Origin: Acidobacteriaceae bacterium
Lineage (GTDB): Bacteria; Acidobacteriota; Terriglobia; Terriglobales; Acidobacteriaceae
NCBI GenBank assembly: GCA_003166855.1
Contig: PMUM01000145.1
Coordinates: 1-46,386 of the forward strand
DNA: 46,386 bases
Direction of reading: 5' to 3'
Position numbers and translations under genes: made by a program. The notes under the pieces are model-generated. The model saw only the letters and a program-made list of their open reading frames with translations, was not told the origin of the DNA and did no database searches. This document shows positions 1,967 to 24,995 of this stretch, piece by piece (position 1 is the first letter of the stretch; each line of letters opens with the position of its first letter).

Positions 1967-4852
1967 TTAGAACGTCGTCGCCACCGTGAACCGGAACGTC
2001 TTTCGCGGCTCCCTCAACTGGAAACTGGGGGCGTACGTGTTGACTGCCAAATGATAGGTATAGTCTCCCGCCGCACCGGCCGGGAACATGGCGCGCGTAA
2101 TCGGAATCGGCGGGTTGGCTTGCTCGTCAAGCCGCAGAGGGTTGTATGCCCAGTAAATGCGGAAGGGGGCGTTCACCACCGGCAGGAACATTTGCAGTTC
2201 GAGTCCCGTGGACATCCGCAGCTGCCAGTTCGCGGAGTTCAAAACGCTGAGATTCTGCGAGGGCCTCGGGTTCAAAATGCCTCCGCCCTGGCAGTTGTAG
2301 CCGGCATCCAGCACCGGACAGCCGAAGAGCGTCCCGATCACCTGGTCATATTGCACCGTGGCAATCTGCAACTGAGACGGCCGTAGAATCGGGTCGATGC
2401 CCGCATCCACAAAGGGCACAATCGCCACTGGCCCCGCGATCGTAATGCGATATTCAAGGTTCCCGAACACACTGAGATCGCCGCCCGGGAACACGATCTG
2501 GTCGACCGGGATAGGGATCGTCCAGTTACCCAGTCGTGGATTCGCCGGGTTCTTGGGGACGGGGGTCCCGTCTGGATTGGTCAGCGTGATCACGTTAGAA
2601 CTCGGCAGGAACGCCACCGGCGAGATCGAGCGGATATCGAATCCACGGATATCGTTTTCGCCGCCCATGAAGAAGCGCTGGAACGGCGGCGCTACCAACC
2701 CGCCATATCCGCTGATGAACGATCCCTGCACGTTGAAGCCGATCGCGTTGCGCCGGTGATTTACGGGGATGAACTGCTTATATTGAACCAACGGACGGAC
2801 CGAATGGACGGTGCCACCCAGTCCAGCCAATTGCATTCCCAGCGTCATCTGGTGCCCCTTATGTGGGGAGATTCCGCTGTCCAGAGTATTGAACGAGAAG
2901 TTGGGGAAGATCGAACTGGTGATGATTCCATTCACTGCATTCGGTCCTGAAATCCCCCGGAATGCGATGAAATCGAAAAGGCTCTTCGAAGCCGTGCTGA
3001 GGGCCACCAGGCTTGACCGGTCGAGCGAATAGGTTATGCCGACTCGCTTGAACGAGCGCCGCAGCGGGTAACTCAACGACGTGGTAAAGCCAACGCTCGA
3101 CTGCGAGTAGTTCTGCAGGTTTTGCAACTGTGCCGCAGGCAGGTTCAGGTTCTGTCCGCTGAAGATGGAAAGCTGCCGCGCCTGGTTGTAGCTGATCTTG
3201 TTGCCGAACACCGTAAAACCAAACTGCAGTGGGCGATCGAACATGTAGGGCTGCGTAAAGCCGAACATGACGCTCCGCGCCAGGTTGCCGAGGCTGATCT
3301 GAACTTGCAGGGTTTCCCCTCGTCCCAGGAAGTTATTCGTCGAGTAATTCAGCCCGATGAAGGCTCCCTCCAGCCCGCTCACGCCTCCGTTGAGTCCGAT
3401 GCTGTTCTTGCCCTTCTCCTTAACCTTCAGCGTCAGGTCGACTTGACCGTTCTTCTCATCCAGCTTTTTCTCCGTCACGTTCGGGTCGTCCGGTTTGAGC
3501 TGGTCGAAATAAGAGAGCTGATTCAGGCGCATCAGACTCAGTTCCCACAGGCGCGAGTTGTAGATGCCGCCTTCCTCCAGCGCCAGTTCGCGGCGGATCA
3601 CTTTGTCGCGCGTGGTGGTATTGCCCGTGAACTCGATGCGGCGGACGTAAAACTGCTTCCCCTCGTCGATGTCGATCTCCAGATCTGCGATCTTCTTTTC
3701 GTCGTCGAAGGTCGTGGAAGGAACGCCCGTGTAATTGATGTACCCATACTCGCCGTAAGCTTTACGCAATGCCTCGATGCCTTTGGCGATCTTTTCGCGG
3801 GAGAAGATATCTCCGTCCTTCAGCGGAAACAGCGAGCGTAGTGCCACGGTGTTCGAGATGGCCTTATTGTTCTTGAAGGTAATCTTGCCCAGTCGGTACT
3901 TGTCACCCTCCTCGACGGGCATCGTGATGTCTACGGCCTTGCCTGGACCAGCCTGCAGCAGCCAGATGTGGAAGCCCTTGTGCCCAGTGTCGTGGATCTC
4001 CGTCTTAGGATCGCTCACGCCCACCTTGAAGTAGCCGCGGTTCTGGTATTCGGCCCGCACCCGCTCGGTGTCTTCTTCCAGTTTGGTGGCGTCGTAGGTC
4101 TTCGCGAAGATGTTCTCTAGGAAGATCGAATGCGGAATGCCGATCGGCTTCAGGTTCTTCATGGCCGCCCGCAGGGTCCGCGAATTGATGTTCTTGTTGC
4201 CTTCGAACTTGATCTTGCCGACTTTGACCTTGGGTCCTTCCTTGACGACGAACGTAATACCGACCGCGGCTGGAGGAATCTGCCGTACTTCGGAACGAAT
4301 CGTCGCAAACTGCCGCCCGTGTTCGGACAGCAGATTCTTGATGGAGACTTCCGCTTTCTTGATGCGGGTGGGATCGTACTGACTCTCCACCACCAGGCCG
4401 ACTTTATCCTGCTTGAACCGGTCAAGGATGTCACTGTTAGAAACTGAACTGGCGCCGACGTAGTCGATGGTGCGGATGGTCGGCTTTTCTTTCACCTGGA
4501 AGGTCAGGCGCCAGCCCTTGGGAGTTTGCTCCCGCAGGATCTTAATGTCCTCGAAGTAGCCCGTGTTCCACAGGGAGTTGAAGTCGCGCTCCAGGGCGGC
4601 CTGATCGTAAACATCCCCCGCCTTCGTAAAGATACGCGCCCGGATGGTTTCGGCTGGAATTCGGCGGTTGCCGATGACGCTGATCTCCGAGACGATGTCG
4701 TTCTGCGCCCACGTCAGGCTTGCGCCCATCAGCCAAAACGCCGCAAAGGCTACGCACAACCAACGCGCACTCCACCTCACTCGTGGCCAAGGCCGTTGAA
4801 ATGAAGAAGATGGCACCGACAAGGCCCTGGGAAAGCAGGGGCCCTTGGGCAC
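1967..4852 (-). CDS. bamA: Outer membrane protein assembly factor BamA
   Basis: This 961-residue Omp85 protein inserts beta-barrel proteins into the outer membrane. A signal peptide ends at about residue 49 (SLTWAQ). POTRA repeats cover roughly 52-475, opening with IVSEISVIGNRRIPAETIRA. A 16-strand barrel follows from about 480, with the GGENDIRGFD lid-loop motif near residue 732, and the chain ends in phenylalanine as expected for the beta-signal. It is longer than the approximately 800 residues of Escherichia coli BamA. Part of the excess lies in POTRA region loops (for example around residues 270-300) and in extracellular loops. The start is GTG with GGAGA about ten bases upstream. A TATAAT box is present 75 bases upstream. 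Confidence 0.95.
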   Translation of the reverse strand: MPKGPCFPRALSVPSSSFQRPWPRVRWSARWLCVAFAAFWLMGASLTWAQNDIVSEISVIGNRRIPAETIRARIFTKAGDVYDQAALERDFNSLWNTGYFEDIKILREQTPKGWRLTFQVKEKPTIRTIDYVGASSVSNSDILDRFKQDKVGLVVESQYDPTRIKKAEVSIKNLLSEHGRQFATIRSEVRQIPPAAVGITFVVKEGPKVKVGKIKFEGNKNINSRTLRAAMKNLKPIGIPHSIFLENIFAKTYDATKLEEDTERVRAEYQNRGYFKVGVSDPKTEIHDTGHKGFHIWLLQAGPGKAVDITMPVEEGDKYRLGKITFKNNKAISNTVALRSLFPLKDGDIFSREKIAKGIEALRKAYGEYGYINYTGVPSTTFDDEKKIADLEIDIDEGKQFYVRRIEFTGNTTTRDKVIRRELALEEGGIYNSRLWELSLMRLNQLSYFDQLKPDDPNVTEKKLDEKNGQVDLTLKVKEKGKNSIGLNGGVSGLEGAFIGLNYSTNNFLGRGETLQVQISLGNLARSVMFGFTQPYMFDRPLQFGFTVFGNKISYNQARQLSIFSGQNLNLPAAQLQNLQNYSQSSVGFTTSLSYPLRRSFKRVGITYSLDRSSLVALSTASKSLFDFIAFRGISGPNAVNGIITSSIFPNFSFNTLDSGISPHKGHQMTLGMQLAGLGGTVHSVRPLVQYKQFIPVNHRRNAIGFNVQGSFISGYGGLVAPPFQRFFMGGENDIRGFDIRSISPVAFLPSSNVITLTNPDGTPVPKNPANPRLGNWTIPIPVDQIVFPGGDLSVFGNLEYRITIAGPVAIVPFVDAGIDPILRPSQLQIATVQYDQVIGTLFGCPVLDAGYNCQGGGILNPRPSQNLSVLNSANWQLRMSTGLELQMFLPVVNAPFRIYWAYNPLRLDEQANPPIPITRAMFPAGAAGDYTYHLAVNTYAPSFQLREPRKTFRFTVATTF

Positions 4853-18415: not shown

Positions 18416-18913
18416 ATGACAGACGCCATCAAACGAAAACTGCAGGAAGAAATCAACGCGCTCGAACACGAGCTGATTCACGAGCTTCCTAAAGAGATTA
18501 AGAAGGCCGCCGCGCTCGGCGACCTCAGCGAGAACGCCGAGTACCACATGGCCAAGCAGCGCCAGGAGTTCGTTAAGGCGCGCGTCCGCCAGCTCGGCAA
18601 GCGCCTCGCCGATCTGTCCATGGTCAACATGAACAACATCCCCCACGACAAAGTGGGATTGGGTTCGACCGTCAAAGTTTTCGACAGCACGAAGAACGAA
18701 GAAATGCAGTACAAGCTGGTGACCAGCGAAGAATCCGATGTAGCGACCGGAAAAATTTCCACCACCTCGCCCATCGGCCGCTGCCTGCTCAACAAGAAAG
18801 TCGGCGACACCGTGATCGTCGTTAGCCCCAACGGCAAGCGCGAACTGGAGATCCTGACCCTGAGCACCATCCACGACGAAATCGCCGACGAACCGAAAGA
18901 GGCGGGCGCGTAA
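18416..18913 (+). CDS. greA: Transcription elongation factor GreA
   Basis: This 165-residue protein stimulates RNA polymerase to cleave backtracked transcripts. The N-terminal antiparallel coiled coil (about 1-75) carries the acidic-tip motif LGDLSENAEYH with the key Asp and Glu. The C-terminal FKBP-like domain (about 80-160) includes GLGSTVKVFD and SPIGRCLLNKKVGDTVIV. Length fits the family (about 158). The ATG lacks a strong ribosome site. It lies about 560 bases after the CarD gene, with repeats and relics between. Confidence 0.95.
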   Translation: MTDAIKRKLQEEINALEHELIHELPKEIKKAAALGDLSENAEYHMAKQRQEFVKARVRQLGKRLADLSMVNMNNIPHDKVGLGSTVKVFDSTKNEEMQYKLVTSEESDVATGKISTTSPIGRCLLNKKVGDTVIVVSPNGKRELEILTLSTIHDEIADEPKEAGA

Positions 18914-19049: not shown

Positions 19050-19691
19050 GTGAGCGCCTCCTGGACTAGCGCTTTCGGCCGCGCCTGCGGAGTCCTGCTC
19101 GACACCATCGTCCGCTGGTTGGCGCTCTCCCGCATCAATCCCAACGTCCTCACCTTCATGGGACTGGTGGTCAATACTTGGGCCGCCATCCTTTTCGGCT
19201 CCTCCAACGCCAGCAACCAGCAACGCATGTTCTTCTACGCCGGACTGGTCATCATCTTCTCCGGCTTCTTCGATCTGGTCGACGGACAGGTCGCCCGCGC
19301 CACCAACCGCGTCACCCGCTTCGGAGCCTTCTTCGACTCCGTCGTCGACCGCTACTCCGACGCCTCCCAATTCCTCGGCCTGCTAGTCTTCTACGCCCGC
19401 GGAGGACGCTTCTTCTACGTCGTCCTCACCGCCTTCGTCATGATCAGCGCCATCATGGTCAGTTACACCCGAGCCCGCGCCGAAAGCCTCATCGGGTCCT
19501 GCCGCGTCGGATTCATGGAACGCCCCGAACGCCTGGTCCTCGTGATCCTCGGAGCTCTCTTTAACCGCATGGCCCCAGTCCTCTGGGTGATCGCAGTCCT
19601 AAGCACCATCACCGTAATCCACCGCATGCGCTACACCTGGACGAGAACTCAAGACTCCCCGACAACCATAAAAGCCGGCCAAGCTGCCTAG
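19050..19691 (+). CDS. CDP-alcohol phosphatidyltransferase family protein
   Basis: This 213-residue integral membrane enzyme transfers a phosphatidyl group from CDP-diacylglycerol to an alcohol. The hallmark DG-x2-AR-x8-G-x3-D-x3-D is complete in DLVDGQVARAT through FGAFFDSVVDRYSD (about residues 71-100), and six hydrophobic segments are visible. The acceptor alcohol (glycerol phosphate, inositol phosphate or other) is not determinable. The GTG start has AGGAG about nine bases upstream. The last 146 bases of the coding region recur at 22318-22463 beyond the inserted 821-residue gene, so this gene's 3' end is an integration point. Confidence 0.9.
   Translation: MSASWTSAFGRACGVLLDTIVRWLALSRINPNVLTFMGLVVNTWAAILFGSSNASNQQRMFFYAGLVIIFSGFFDLVDGQVARATNRVTRFGAFFDSVVDRYSDASQFLGLLVFYARGGRFFYVVLTAFVMISAIMVSYTRARAESLIGSCRVGFMERPERLVLVILGALFNRMAPVLWVIAVLSTITVIHRMRYTWTRTQDSPTTIKAGQAA
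19545..19690 (+). repeat. Direct repeat A: intact 3' end of the phosphatidyltransferase gene (attL-like)
   Basis: These 146 bases match 22318-22463 at 139 positions. All seven differences fall in the first half (19545-19616); the final 74 bases (19617-19690) are identical. Six of the seven differences are synonymous in the coding frame, and the exception is Leu to Phe. Confidence 0.93.
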
Positions 19692-19744
19692 GTCTTGATG
19701 TACGTGGCGCCTCCGCCTGCAAACGCTGCCCGGAAGTTGAGTTG

Positions 19745-22210
19745 CTATTGTGGTGACCCCGCTCTGGGGCGAACCGCTGCCTCCCGGCCGCGCTGCCGGA
19801 TCTTTCGAATTGCGCTGATGTTGCTCCGTAAAGATTTGCTGACGCCAGCCCAGTCCCACATGACATCCTTGTTTCCAATGGCCTGCCATTGCGAATCAAG
19901 GTAGTCGGCAAAAACCGTCGCACGGTCAAGCCGATTGTCAATGTCATCGCTGTCTCCGATTTGGACACGCACCCTGTCGTCCACTATCGGCGTATCTACG
20001 ATCATTGCGTCGACGTACGCGAAATACCTGCATAGTTGCTTGATAGTGTACGCACCGATAGTCGTTATTCGATACGCGACGGCTTCAGCTTTCTCAAGGA
20101 AAGCGGGGCTCGGCTCGATGAGCTTCTTATCCATTGCGCGCTGAATCGCAAAGTTAACCTGCGCGGGGCTAAAGCCCAATCCCTGGGCGAAATCATATAT
20201 CGGTCCAGCGTCGACATAGCCCTGTCCGGCTGTGCCTGCATTCCTCTCGATGAATGCGACGATATTCCCCGTCAGGAAGTGCTCCTTTCCATCGGGCGTT
20301 GTGATATCGAACAGATTCGCTACAGGTGTCGACGACGGGTCAAAATGCTCGAAGTCACCGAAGATGACTGCCCGCATGAACTCATGAACTGAGATTGTGT
20401 AGTGCCCTTGCTCTTCATACTTGGAAAGGATCTTCGCAGCATTCACGTGGCCACTACCGATGAACGCGTTCAAGAAATCCAACGCCCTTCGCACATTACC
20501 GCCGCTCAGATTGTCGACAAAAGAGTTAAGTTCCTCGTTCGTCTCGAAGGTGTGCAGTAGAGCGCTCATGTAGCGCGACAAGGTCTGTGAATTAACCGTG
20601 ATGTTGGTCGGAAACGCCGCTAGCTTTCCAGTTCGCTGTAGTTGATCGAGAGCGAACCGTATCCGCTTCTTAATCACAACGTCAATACGGGGAGGAGAAA
20701 TCGTGAAAACCCGTGGCTGGTACGCCGTCAGCGATCCCTTCGTTCGCGAGTGATAGAAAGTATCTGGTCGGAGTGCTATGAACACAGTCGCAGGCCAGGT
20801 CTCTGCAAGGCTCTGCCCAATCAGGAAAGCGCGCTCCTGGAACTCGAAAGGTCTCTGATCGACATTGTCCAGAAAGATCACCACCTGGCGCTTGTGGGCT
20901 TTCGAAATGTGCTCGAGCGATGCGCGAAGGTGTGCAGCCCGGTCCTCGAGTTTCGAGGCCAGAAACTCAATTTCCTTCACCAGGAAGGCATTCTCATCGA
21001 TTTTCTTCAGGTCGGCATAAATTCCCTTAGAAAAACGGACCAGATCGCCATGATAGACGCCGCGAATGAAGCCTCGGTCGCGAATGTCGACGCCGTATTC
21101 CCGAAGTTGAGCTTCGCACCTAGCTATCACGAAACGTTCCAGATCGTCCGCCAAAGCCGGCTCCTTGCCGAAGTCAACATAAAGGCTGATCGCTTTCTCA
21201 AAAATGGAACGCCCCTCCACCCTCATCAGATGACGTATGAACATTGACTTTCCTACGCCAACATCTCCAAGTAGTATGATCACGCGGCGCTTTAGCCCCG
21301 CAGACACCACGTCGGCAGTGATCTCCGACGTTAGATCAGGAGCAACCCCGTCCTTCACTCGCGCTGGTTGCATGGTGGGGACCTGAAGCTCCTTTTGCAT
21401 AATTAAGGAATATCTCGTTTCGAGGACTTGGCGGCTAATCAGGGCGTACTGCGACAGTGCGCCGCTGGAGGAGTAGCAGTCTTTCAGGAAATCGTCCTCC
21501 AATTGCGGCACTCGGCCAATATCTTCAATGAACAGCTCCCCTAGGGTCTTCAGCTCCGTTTGGAACGGGTTGCGATTCTTGAAGCCCGGGTAGTTTGCGA
21601 GCCGACGCGACAGGCGCTCGGGCGGGGGCTTGACGGCATCGGCCAGCAGTGTTGTGTGGATGTTGCGGGCAGAGATTCCGGGTTTAGACAGATCAAACCA
21701 GAGCTCCCTGAAGTGTTCACGCATCTTCCGGAGGGACGGGAACGCCAAAGCGCGTCCGTCGAGGGGAGCAATTCCATCTTGTCTACTTCCTATGAACGCT
21801 ATCAGCTGGTGTCCGTTGCACACGGCTCCAATGGGTATACCCCGACGTTGGCAATATTCGACGGCCTGCTTAATAGCGTCTCCGATTTCCTTGTCGAGAT
21901 CGAGCAGGGTCTCCAGCTTGTAGCTAATTCTGTCGAATCCAGCGGGCACTTCGAAGTAAATGCCTTCTCGCTTGGCTTCCACCAGAAACCTACGAGATGG
22001 GACACCAAATGAATAGTCGGTATATTGTCCTTCGTGGTGCTCTTCCGCAACGCAGTCTTCGCGGTCCCATCCCAGGCATTCGAAGAGGAGGCGATCGATC
22101 AAATGCAGACGGGTCGTAGCTTCGTTCCGGAGGATCTCGTCTTCGCGTGCGGCGGCCCAGACCAGAAGCTCGTCAAGCTTCTCGCGAGCCGACTCGTAGT
22201 CTAATCCCAT
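19745..22210 (-). CDS. HsdR-N-like PD-(D/E)XK nuclease fused to AAA+/STAND-like ATPase, putative defence protein
   Basis: This 821-residue protein has no signal peptide and no clear membrane helix. Residues about 20-150 resemble the HSDR_N nuclease fold: E30 in NEATTRLHLIDRLL, LGWDRED at 46-52, D65 in TDYSF and E78-A-K80 form a complete E...D...ExK set. A linker (about 160-300) is followed by a P-loop ATPase: Walker A GDVGVGKS at 315-322, Walker B VVIFLDNVD at 443-451, a sensor-like ALRPD at 479-483, and sensor-2 GGNVRRAL at 570-577, resembling the ORC/Cdc6 and STAND groups. A winged-helix-like region follows (about 650-740). This architecture suggests ATP-gated DNA cleavage triggered by an unknown signal, that is, phage or plasmid defence. 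That function is an inference. ATG is preceded by AGGCGG. Confidence 0.82.
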   Translation of the reverse strand: MGLDYESAREKLDELLVWAAAREDEILRNEATTRLHLIDRLLFECLGWDREDCVAEEHHEGQYTDYSFGVPSRRFLVEAKREGIYFEVPAGFDRISYKLETLLDLDKEIGDAIKQAVEYCQRRGIPIGAVCNGHQLIAFIGSRQDGIAPLDGRALAFPSLRKMREHFRELWFDLSKPGISARNIHTTLLADAVKPPPERLSRRLANYPGFKNRNPFQTELKTLGELFIEDIGRVPQLEDDFLKDCYSSSGALSQYALISRQVLETRYSLIMQKELQVPTMQPARVKDGVAPDLTSEITADVVSAGLKRRVIILLGDVGVGKSMFIRHLMRVEGRSIFEKAISLYVDFGKEPALADDLERFVIARCEAQLREYGVDIRDRGFIRGVYHGDLVRFSKGIYADLKKIDENAFLVKEIEFLASKLEDRAAHLRASLEHISKAHKRQVVIFLDNVDQRPFEFQERAFLIGQSLAETWPATVFIALRPDTFYHSRTKGSLTAYQPRVFTISPPRIDVVIKKRIRFALDQLQRTGKLAAFPTNITVNSQTLSRYMSALLHTFETNEELNSFVDNLSGGNVRRALDFLNAFIGSGHVNAAKILSKYEEQGHYTISVHEFMRAVIFGDFEHFDPSSTPVANLFDITTPDGKEHFLTGNIVAFIERNAGTAGQGYVDAGPIYDFAQGLGFSPAQVNFAIQRAMDKKLIEPSPAFLEKAEAVAYRITTIGAYTIKQLCRYFAYVDAMIVDTPIVDDRVRVQIGDSDDIDNRLDRATVFADYLDSQWQAIGNKDVMWDWAGVSKSLRSNISAIRKIRQRGREAAVRPRAGSPQ

Positions 22211-22317
22211 GCCACCGCCTGCTACCCGGGAGCTCGAAGTGTTGGCGTATCTTCTTTCGAGGTTCCGGAGAATCTACGCGCTTAGTGTAAACGAAATTAA
22301 GAGAGAGAGAGCTTGCA
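22211..22317 (-). promoter_or_regulatory. Upstream region of the nuclease-ATPase gene
   Basis: These 107 bases between the ATG and direct repeat B must hold the promoter if the cassette is autonomous. On the minus strand TTTCGTTTACACT and a (CT)n run (22301-22311) are present, but no clean -10/-35 pair. It is A+T-richer than the surroundings. Confidence 0.35.
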
Positions 22318-22463
22318 ATCCTCGGAGCTCTCTTCAACCGCATGGCCCCAGTTTTCTGGGTGATCGCAGTCCTCAGCACAATCACAGTCATCCACCGCAT
22401 GCGCTACACCTGGACGAGAACTCAAGACTCCCCGACAACCATAAAAGCCGGCCAAGCTGCCTA
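22318..22463 (+). pseudogene. Direct repeat B: displaced 3' end of a phosphatidyltransferase gene (attR-like)
   Basis: This is a start-less copy of the last 48 codons of the CDP-alcohol phosphatidyltransferase, ending in TAA where copy A has TAG. It keeps an open frame, and the mostly synonymous differences from copy A indicate it diverged while still part of a functional gene. It is therefore the end of an allele from another lineage rather than a decayed tandem duplicate. Confidence 0.9.
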
Positions 22464-22514
22464 ACGTTGGACTCGACATTACAAGACCCGCCGAATACCT
22501 TCTTCTTCCGAGCG

Positions 22515-22545
22515 CAAAAAAAAGGCCAGCCCCTGAGGGCCGGCC
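22515..22545 (-). terminator. Rho-independent terminator after the DUF5818-like gene
   Basis: On the minus strand GGCCGGCCC-TCA-GGGGCTGGCC is a strong stem with one mismatch, followed by TTTTTTTTTGCG. It lies 24 bases downstream of the stop codon at 22569. Confidence 0.9.
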
Positions 22546-22568
22546 CGTGAACGGTCTCACGAACATTA

Positions 22569-22976
22569 CTACTTCGTGCAAGTCTCGCTGACCATTTTTA
22601 CATCGGTAACACTCAAATTCCTGATCTGGTCTTTGCCGGACGCGTTCTGCATCTGGCCGTCCTTCTTGCCTTCGGCTTTCATTTCATGTGTGACTGTGCC
22701 GGTCACCGTTACTTGATGGCCAACGTGCTCATCAAATTTGACGGTATCGCTGCGCAGGTCATAGATCTTGCCGTCTGCTGCCGTGAGAGTTATTTCTCCC
22801 GGCTGGTCACCCTTTTGCAGACAGCCGCTTACCGTCTTTGGGGGTTTCGCCGCTTTCGTATCTGGGCTTGCTTGTGCCGAAGTTGTCGTGTTGGGTGGCG
22901 TGGCGGCGTCTTGCGCTAGCGAGACGGCGGACGCCAAAAGCGCGAAAGCAAACGTAACGAACATTAACTTCTTCAT
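22569..22976 (-). CDS. Small secreted protein, DUF5818-like
   Basis: This 135-residue protein has a clear Sec signal peptide (MKKLMFVTFAFALLASAVSLA), a Thr/Pro/Ala-rich linker (about 22-46), and a compact beta-rich domain with TVSGCLQKGDQPGEITLTA and VGHQVTVTGTV and two cysteines (about C52 and C133) that could form a disulfide. The pattern recalls DUF5818 proteins of acidobacteria; function unknown. The start was placed at 22976 because AAGGAG lies nine bases upstream and it begins a proper signal peptide. The longer frame to 23171 has neither. Confidence 0.75.
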   Translation of the reverse strand: MKKLMFVTFAFALLASAVSLAQDAATPPNTTTSAQASPDTKAAKPPKTVSGCLQKGDQPGEITLTAADGKIYDLRSDTVKFDEHVGHQVTVTGTVTHEMKAEGKKDGQMQNASGKDQIRNLSVTDVKMVSETCTK

Positions 22977-23400
22977 AATTTGGAACTCCTTCGGCCAGAA
23001 GCGAAAGATGAGTTGTCGGTCTGATGACCCCGAAACACGCTGCGACGCCAGCGTCTTCCGTTGGTCCTCCGTTACGAATATAGAGAGGGGTTTTAGCCTG
23101 AGCCAGTTCAAAGTCCCTGAGTGCTCGGCCCCGGGCATCCACAGACTCGCCCGAAGAGAAGCACGCAGCATGCGGAGCAGGCGCGTTGGGACAACCTGTC
23201 AACCAGCGCGCCACCCGCTCCGCTACAACTAACCCAGCTGACGTCAACCAGCCTAAGCTGTCGAAATCCGTGCGTCTGAGCACAATTGCACATTTCTGAG
23301 AAATGTACGGGATGCCGGACAGCAGAACCGAGTCGTCATTCCGTCCCTAACCATCGAAGGGAATGTGGCGGAATCTGCCGTCCGCCCAATCTCCGCAAGA
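22977..23400. other. Non-coding region upstream of the DUF5818-like gene
   Basis: No credible gene was found on either strand; the available frames are short and shadow-like. The promoter of the 22569-22976 gene should lie at its lower end. Confidence 0.45.
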
Positions 23401-24059: not shown

Positions 24060-24995
24060 TTGCCGACAGATCCGGTTCTAGTCGTTCATGGTGGCGCGTG
24101 GGCCATGCCCGATGACATGGTCGACGCCCACATCCACGGCGTGACCAACGCGCTGACTGCGGGATGGCGCGTGCTCGAGCGCGGCGGCACAGCCCTCGAC
24201 GCCGTCGAAGAAGCCGTCGTCATCATGGAAGACGACGAGACCTTCGACGCCGGACGCGGCAGCTTCCTCAACCGCGACGGCAAAGTCCAACTCGACGCCC
24301 TCATCATGGACGGCGCCACGCTTCGCGCCGGCGGCGTCGGATGCGTCGAGCGTCTGCGCAATCCCGTGCGCGCCGCCCGCAAGATTCTCAGCGAGAGTCC
24401 GCACGTCTATTTCGTCGCGGAAGGCGCGGAACGTTTCGCCGCTGAACATGGCATCGCGCTCTGCAAGAACGAAGACCTCGTCATACCGCGCGAAGTCGAA
24501 CGCCTGCGCGAGTACCAGGCCGACGCCGCGCAACACGGCAACGATCTGTTCGCGCCCAGTTCTGACGATGTGACCATCTCGCACGACACAGTCGGAGCAG
24601 TCGCGCTCGACCGCGCCGGCAACATCGCCGCCGCCACTTCGACCGGAGGCACGCTGAACAAGGCTCCCGGACGCCTCGGCGATTCCTCTCTGATCGGCTG
24701 CGGCTGCTACGCGAACAATGAGAGCGCCGCCGTCTCCACCACCGGATGGGGCGAGCCGATCATGAAGTTAGTGCTGGCCAAGTGGACCGCCGACCGCATT
24801 CAGGCTGGCAATCTGCCCGAATGGTCCGCGCAGGAAGCAATGAACTACCTGAAGCAGCGCCTCAACGGCCACGGAGGCATCATCGTCCTGAACCCCGAAG
24901 GCCACATCGGCATCGCCCACAACACCCCGCGCATGGCCTGGGCGTACAAGACCGTAAAGAAGCAGGAAGCGGGCATCGAACGGAACGCGCCTTAG
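24060..24995 (+). CDS. Isoaspartyl peptidase/L-asparaginase (Ntn hydrolase)
   Basis: This 311-residue protein belongs to the type-2 asparaginase family, which hydrolyses isoaspartyl dipeptides and asparagine after autocleavage. The N-terminal VVHGGAW (about 8-14) and the cleavage motif HDTVGAVALD place the catalytic nucleophile at T177, giving a large (1-176) and a small (177-311) subunit. TSTGGTLNKAPGRLGDSSL-type and GWGEPIMK motifs follow. The TTG start has GGGGAAA seven bases upstream. No signal peptide is seen, so it is probably cytoplasmic. It converges on the response-regulator gene with an 18-base gap. Confidence 0.93.
   Translation: MPTDPVLVVHGGAWAMPDDMVDAHIHGVTNALTAGWRVLERGGTALDAVEEAVVIMEDDETFDAGRGSFLNRDGKVQLDALIMDGATLRAGGVGCVERLRNPVRAARKILSESPHVYFVAEGAERFAAEHGIALCKNEDLVIPREVERLREYQADAAQHGNDLFAPSSDDVTISHDTVGAVALDRAGNIAAATSTGGTLNKAPGRLGDSSLIGCGCYANNESAAVSTTGWGEPIMKLVLAKWTADRIQAGNLPEWSAQEAMNYLKQRLNGHGGIIVLNPEGHIGIAHNTPRMAWAYKTVKKQEAGIERNAP

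Follow-up and report, generated by a model that had tools for sequence, protein, structure and literature searches.

A recent single-gene insertion with a long mosaic duplication of the target gene end in an Acidobacteriaceae bacterium

A 46,386-nucleotide stretch of the genome of an Acidobacteriaceae bacterium (contig PMUM01000145.1 of assembly GCA_003166855.1; this whole stretch is called the window) carries a real, recent insertion of a single gene behind the gene of a CDP-alcohol phosphatidyltransferase (pgs), with a long mosaic target duplication. The inserted gene encodes a protein of 821 residues, probably a nuclease joined to an ATPase, and lies between two direct copies of the pgs 3' end (Table 1). 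The repeat is 146 nt long with 139 identical positions (95%), and the duplication is beyond chance, as blastn between both flanks gave E 4.8e-63. Base by base, the left part is identical at 65 of 72 positions and the right part at 74 of 74; all seven differences thus lie upstream of the identical core, and six of them are synonymous, the exception being codon 178, where Leu is replaced by Phe in copy 2. Codons 177-178 of copy 2 carry an adjacent CC to TT change, which may be one later event; neither codon form is present in the 28 genomes compared. The homology between the copies extends to the second base of the stop codon. Upstream of the insert pgs is intact, copy 2 being a gene fragment only. 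Between the copies there is one 821-codon gene, as the remaining listed frames (201 aa at most) overlap with it in different reading frames, and no recombinase or conjugation gene was seen in the open reading frame list. A first-pass annotation of the window had proposed such a recurring gene end with an identical core, synonymous differences upstream of it and a one-gene cassette without recombinase, and the repeat search, the base-by-base comparison and the open reading frames bear this description out.

An empty site with one gene end, for which the same annotation had suggested searching relatives, was found in G004, a genome of the same genus whose pgs is 99% identical at the protein level. 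In G004 a single pgs end, closing with TAA as does copy 2 and not with the TAG of the window's pgs, is continuous with both flanks. Window positions 19061-19690 align to positions 2178-2807 of G004 and 22318-23337 to 2662-3667, the overlap being one gene end, and one alignment between the two genomes crosses the junction at 89% with the insert left out. The 821-residue gene and the second gene end are therefore an insertion. The gene was detected in one of 45 genomes of the genus (E 1e-20). Across the phylum it was matched in six of 396 genomes, window included; two of the other five matches are near full length at 25-27% and three cover the ATPase part only. The inserted gene is foreign: its G+C content at third codon positions is 0.627 vs 0.79-0.82 in pgs, greA and the asparaginase gene asp2, and in a midpoint-rooted tree, in which one row (L154) is very long, its protein falls into the starred group with seven actinobacterial proteins (support 99/97).

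To characterize the mosaic repeat, the pgs ends that could be aligned gap-free, those of 28 genus genomes (from 41 loci, one cut off inside the gene), were compared in 378 pairs. Among these the right part is the more variable one, with on average 18.7 differences vs 15.3 in the left part, and every one of the 378 pairs differs at three or more of the last 74 bases. All 20 pairs with 5-9 differences on the left show at least 10 on the right, whereas the two window copies show 7 and 0 (7/72 vs 0/74, Fisher p 0.006). The synonymous share of six in seven compares with an expected fraction of 0.269 (p 0.002 under free drift). Given this left-right contrast and the synonymous excess, the left parts of the repeat seem to have accumulated their differences in two lineages, as working genes, while the right part seems to have been shared or exchanged recently. 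On the simplest reading both 74-base cores would be the recipient's and the divergent 72 bases would have come with the cassette. The pairwise comparison hence speaks for the earlier suggestion that one half stems from another lineage and that the identical 74 bases are the exchange zone. It also bears on illegitimate insertion with a local duplication of 74 (or 146) bases and subsequent decay of copy 2. Long, variable target duplications are reported for restriction-modification genes (PMC3031569), but drift should affect all codon positions and both halves, whereas six of seven changes are synonymous and all seven lie in the left 72 bases, which makes this origin quite improbable.

With moderate confidence, we favour the explanation that a foreign nuclease-ATPase cassette, likely a defensive passenger, was joined in by homologous exchange at the pgs end. 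The cassette would have entered the window lineage at the pgs 3' end after the split of this lineage from G004, having been transferred together with another lineage's copy of the pgs end. By exchange between the homologous gene ends the recipient would have kept its own pgs up to the stop codon, with the cassette next to it and, behind the cassette, the donor's 72-base gene end followed by the 74-base core and the native flank. As the cassette has no recombinase, the exchange would most simply be homologous recombination, for instance after DNA uptake, which a ComEC-type match in the same genome makes possible. Such an exchange through the gene end would explain the mosaic without further assumptions. 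The passenger would most likely act alone as a defence nuclease, its ORC/STAND-like ATPase sensing or assembling on invading DNA and driving the HsdR-like PD-(D/E)XK domain to cut it. The repeated gene or tRNA ends around the family members L129 and L133, the defence genes near some family members and the solitary prophage gene in E. coli, all described below, also speak for this explanation.

Several results weigh against this explanation. The insertion is carried by one genome only, and no donor was found. The left halves of the two copies differ from G004 at 5 and 6 positions and from each other at 7, and being about equally far from G004 they leave the question of which copy was imported to position rather than to a donor match. 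In a simple scan no promoter-like site was found on the inserted gene's own strand. None of the PADLOC families matched the window protein at E up to 1, viral contigs gave no match to it, and phage records matched neither the window protein nor its homologue from K. aerogenes, despite the assignment to a PHROG family. Furthermore, the source assembly is a draft of 479 contigs with 6.27% contamination. In such a draft, contigs of two strains could have been joined falsely through the 74-base identical stretch, a length within the error reach of short-read graphs. Yet a second gene end beside the inserted gene would be needed for such a join anyway, and the genome's remaining contigs gave no match to the pgs end, so that we regard an assembly chimera as very improbable.

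Gene 3' ends are typical integration targets. It is thus possible, though we give it clearly less credence than homologous exchange, that the cassette is a stripped integrative element whose gene ends are attL and attR and which was moved by a tyrosine recombinase encoded elsewhere, similar to the cis-mobilizable elements (CIMEs) or to e14 and phage 21. The use of a gene 3' end as target and the end of homology at the stop codon fit this origin, and the 33 Phage_integrase matches over the cut-off in the same genome make a recombinase in trans possible. Related genes at three loci (L131, L074 and L133, described below) are likewise enclosed by tRNA or gene ends, and L131 has an integrase of its own. 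On the other hand, an attachment site could do without the 72 bases of gene sequence that precede the core. Moreover, searches with the pgs protein covered 69 distinct genomes (sets of 61 and 11, three in both) and matched the gene in 65 of them (57 in the set of 61, where the weakest match, in G050, is perhaps a paralogue), and no second pgs end was seen in any of the 68 genomes other than the window's. The 146-base end is single in 32 of 33 genus loci, that is, wherever it was found, and self-repeat tests of 28 of the 41 genus loci turned up no more than 13-base chance matches, at three loci. In viral contigs, one exact 21-base pattern taken from the 74-base core had no match. A recurrent attachment site at the pgs end, tried as a candidate, is not supported by these searches, and restriction-type cargo at this site elsewhere lacks duplicated ends; this part of the first-pass annotation is unsupported.

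Whether other genomes hold different cargo at the same gene end was followed in the 41 other genus loci. In 30 of them asp2 follows pgs, with a gap of almost nothing to 6.8 kb; the remaining 11 break off early or have different genes next. Restriction-type cargo stands behind pgs at two loci, in both cases without duplicated ends. G025 (L042:8861-12814) has a single gene for a Type IIG restriction-methylase of 1317 aa (Eco57I, E 6e-23) between pgs and asp2. G014 (L052:10001-13672) has a C5 cytosine methylase, Vsr and a GHKL-ATPase protein; it is also rearranged downstream, its right flank being common to G062. The pgs-asp2 site is variable and sometimes holds restriction genes. Different cargo at the same gene end, which the first-pass annotation had set as the condition for a defence hot spot, thus occurs, but without duplicated ends being seen, and the case for a hot spot is weak, with three of 42 loci counting the window and several of the 42 cut off by contig ends. 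Family-library scans covered only the large cargo of G025, G014 and G023 and one frame of G003, most other cargo being judged by eye.

Further cargo was noticed at the site. The GHKL-ATPase protein of G014, which may be a restriction partner, had no PADLOC match at E 0.001. What look by eye like PIN-domain toxin genes lie behind pgs in G018, G062 and G035. A secreted-looking protein of 1255-1295 aa is encoded at the pgs-asp2 site of G023 (L045:9887-13774) and G061 (L098:1998-5765), and the one of G023 has a match to a 5'-nucleotidase C-terminal domain (E 3.5e-7).

The inserted protein matches the PHROGs profile phrog_14719 over residues 7-774 of 821 (E 5e-96) and, by this sequence match, is a member of that uncharacterised family. 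In an alignment of 38 sequences (the window protein and those of 37 of 55 family loci) residues E30, R34, D65, E78-A-K80, Q115, Y119, G315, G320-K321, D448 and D451 are invariant. We take E30, D65, E78-A-K80, Q115 and Y119 to be those of an HsdR-type PD-(D/E)XK nuclease and G315, G320-K321, D448 and D451 those of a Walker-type ATPase. The protein is thus probably an HsdR_N-like PD-(D/E)XK nuclease combined with a P-loop ORC/Cdc6-like ATPase, and probably defensive. In Pfam at E up to 1 the window protein itself matched neither HSDR_N nor HSDR_N_2 but only P-loop families below their cut-offs. Among eight homologues HSDR_N_2 was found above the cut-off in L074, at the cut-off in L067 and below it in L066, L075, L077 and L079, with no match in L071 and L072. 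NCBIfam gave only weak matches. The predicted model has a mean predicted local distance difference test score (pLDDT) of 83.2, and its best Foldseek matches were ORC/Cdc6 ATPases, followed by CED-4, plant NRC proteins and RdrA, all as partial alignments with low TM-scores; alignments with viral structure models were likewise partial and low in TM-score. The fold match suggests a winged helix in the C-terminal part. Against solved structures, the sequence search gave one match (E 0.61) and the profile search, among the best 60 of 105 matches, P-loop NTPases by name.

Scanning genome contigs with the window protein alone gave no match, and a three-sequence alignment retrieved the 55 family loci, which span Actinomycetota, Chloroflexota, Bacteroidota, Pseudomonadota, Planctomycetota, Acidobacteriota and others. 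Of the 55, 44 contain a frame of 800 codons or more, among them L112, for which no start was found nearby. Short or interrupted family frames were seen at L116, L127, L130, L140, L141 and L150 and may reflect decay, sequencing error or switching. The literature search found no paper tied to the phrog_14719 family, which is not proof of absence.

Subsequently, the surroundings of family members were analyzed. Among the 64 family loci that extend 50 or more bases to either side, ten are flanked by direct repeats left and right, within 6 kb. L129 adjoins a 136-codon frame without Pfam match, the 3' end of which is repeated across a 4-kb insert at 79%. L133 stands alone, without integrase, between two tRNA-Cys 3' halves with terminators; these were recognised by their similarity to tRNA-Cys genes annotated in two phage records (85% over 46 bases), and neither Rfam nor ARAGORN called a tRNA in the flanks. 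L131 (L131:2984-9857) is part of a 6.8-kb element bounded by tRNA-Arg, with its own tyrosine integrase and a G2P-type filamentous-phage replication gene, and L074 is surrounded by phage remnants and bordered by 49-base repeats that by eye resemble a tRNA. L121 (L121:2786-9159) lies between two copies of an integrase gene 3' end plus about 300 further bases; a short frame and then a helicase gene come next. By eye, the repeat at L134 resembles the end of an insertion sequence, and those at L117, L122, L147 and L071 are unrelated or hard to interpret. Flanking repeats occur at four of 42 testable loci (of the 55) vs six of 309 control windows (p 0.02), a weak enrichment, as the control windows overlap, their six hits stem from two loci, and L134 and L121 are among the four. 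It is conceivable, though on this evidence unlikely, that phrog_14719 genes in general are self-contained, recombinase-less mobile defence cassettes that settle time and again at gene and tRNA 3' ends, with copies of the host gene end serving as homology arms or as borrowed attachment sites. If so, the gene end itself would be the vehicle for their transfer between species.

Family matches were found in 29 plasmid records, and the neighbours were read in nine. L071 lies near a methylase and a restriction endonuclease, L077 near an N-6 methylase, and L075, L076 and L078 near integrases; the rest of the nine have only transposases or unnamed genes nearby. A homologue in G324 lies, by eye, behind an HsdR-like gene. 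Of 179 neighbour frames collected, 90 were scanned; three matched Phage_integrase, and with PADLOC (best 25 of 72 families) two members matched a type IV restriction enzyme, one HamA, and one each the AriA, GajA and Old models, perhaps through one protein. These neighbour counts stand without a control set. In E. coli ten of 5426 genomes gave a match, eight of them carrying a full-length relative. At the four E. coli loci read, the gene is single, antisense to its neighbours and located in a Rac-like prophage between genes for DUF1367 and DUF977; in one of the four, H27, it is split into two frames. This interval (L166:8322-11955) appears to be an accessory slot with varying cargo, the phrog_14719 family included. 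Other E. coli prophages hold different genes in the same slot, for instance one for a P-loop ATPase of the Sll1717 family or one for a KilA-N protein (among the matches listed, 40 of 4656).

Insertion of restriction-modification genes with long target duplication was reportedly described by Nobusato in 2000 and by Furuta in 2010, and the insertion in the window is best read as a variant of this process. Long and variable target duplications of such genes are described in two articles (PMC3031569, PMC4978471). The restriction-type gene without recombinase, the long direct target repeats (146 bp) and the empty site in a relative are alike, whereas in the window the repeat is a mosaic with one half apparently from another lineage, the gene is a single nuclease-ATPase without methylase and the insertion affects a housekeeping gene at its 3' end. 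CIMEs (PMC7563491) are 1.2-13 kb long and carry cargo between duplicated gene 3' ends without recombination or conjugation genes. The insertion in the window resembles this portrayal and differs from it in that no related integrative and conjugative or integrative and mobilizable element was found at the pgs end in the 69 distinct genomes.

Phage 21 and e14 at icd likewise lie at the 3' end of a protein gene with a duplicated end that shows synonymous differences; unlike the present cassette, they carry an integrase and replace the gene's own end, whereas here the divergent part is in the distal copy. The minimal mobile elements of Neisseria also place differing cargo between the same conserved genes and are exchanged through flanking homology, in a model not known to involve a duplicated gene end. 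Avs and other STAND nuclease defence proteins share an N-terminal PD-(D/E)XK nuclease fused to a STAND-like ATPase. In contrast to these, no C-terminal repeat sensor was seen in the window protein, and its ATPase is closest to ORC/Cdc6. The PHROG itself has no assigned function, and the window copy lies outside any recognised prophage. The way in which single defence genes spread without a recombinase of their own is a question of practical weight. In the window the empty site, both joints and the mosaic exchange zone can still be read, as the insertion is young, and this makes its route testable. The insertion also draws attention to a nuclease-ATPase family that is widespread, uncharacterised and open to assays in laboratory E. 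coli.

Table 1. Features around the insertion, in window coordinates
Feature	Position	Strand	Basis or remark
greA	18416..18913	+	conserved upstream neighbour; GreA_GreB E 2.9e-25
pgs, CDP-alcohol phosphatidyltransferase gene, intact, stop TAG	19050..19691	+	PF01066 CDP-OH_P_transf E 2.5e-17
Repeat copy 1, 3' end of intact pgs	19545..19690	+	repeat search, base-by-base comparison
74-base identical core, copy 1 (putative exchange zone)	19617..19690	+	74/74 identical to 22390-22463; mosaic test
Short spacer, pgs end to stop of inserted gene	19691..19744	.	similarity comparison
Inserted gene, probable 821-aa nuclease-ATPase, phrog_14719 family	19745..22210	-	motifs, profile, predicted fold
Leader of inserted gene, AG-rich tract beside junction	22211..22317	.	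sequence, similarity comparison
Repeat copy 2, extra pgs end, runs into native downstream flank	22318..22463	+	repeat search
Divergent 72 bases of copy 2, read as another lineage's	22318..22389	+	7 differences, 6 synonymous
74-base identical core, copy 2	22390..22463	+	base-by-base comparison
Native downstream neighbour, DUF5818-like	22569..23171	-	PF19135 E 1.2e-5, 25.2 bits (cut-off 27); same place in G004
asp2, Asparaginase_2 gene, right landmark	24060..24995	+	PF01112 E 1.5e-96

The spacer and the leader of the inserted gene showed no similarity to the genus or family loci compared. The true start of the DUF5818-like gene probably makes it shorter than given in Table 1. On the left side greA adjoins pgs in 32 of 33 genus loci, the remaining locus beginning inside pgs.

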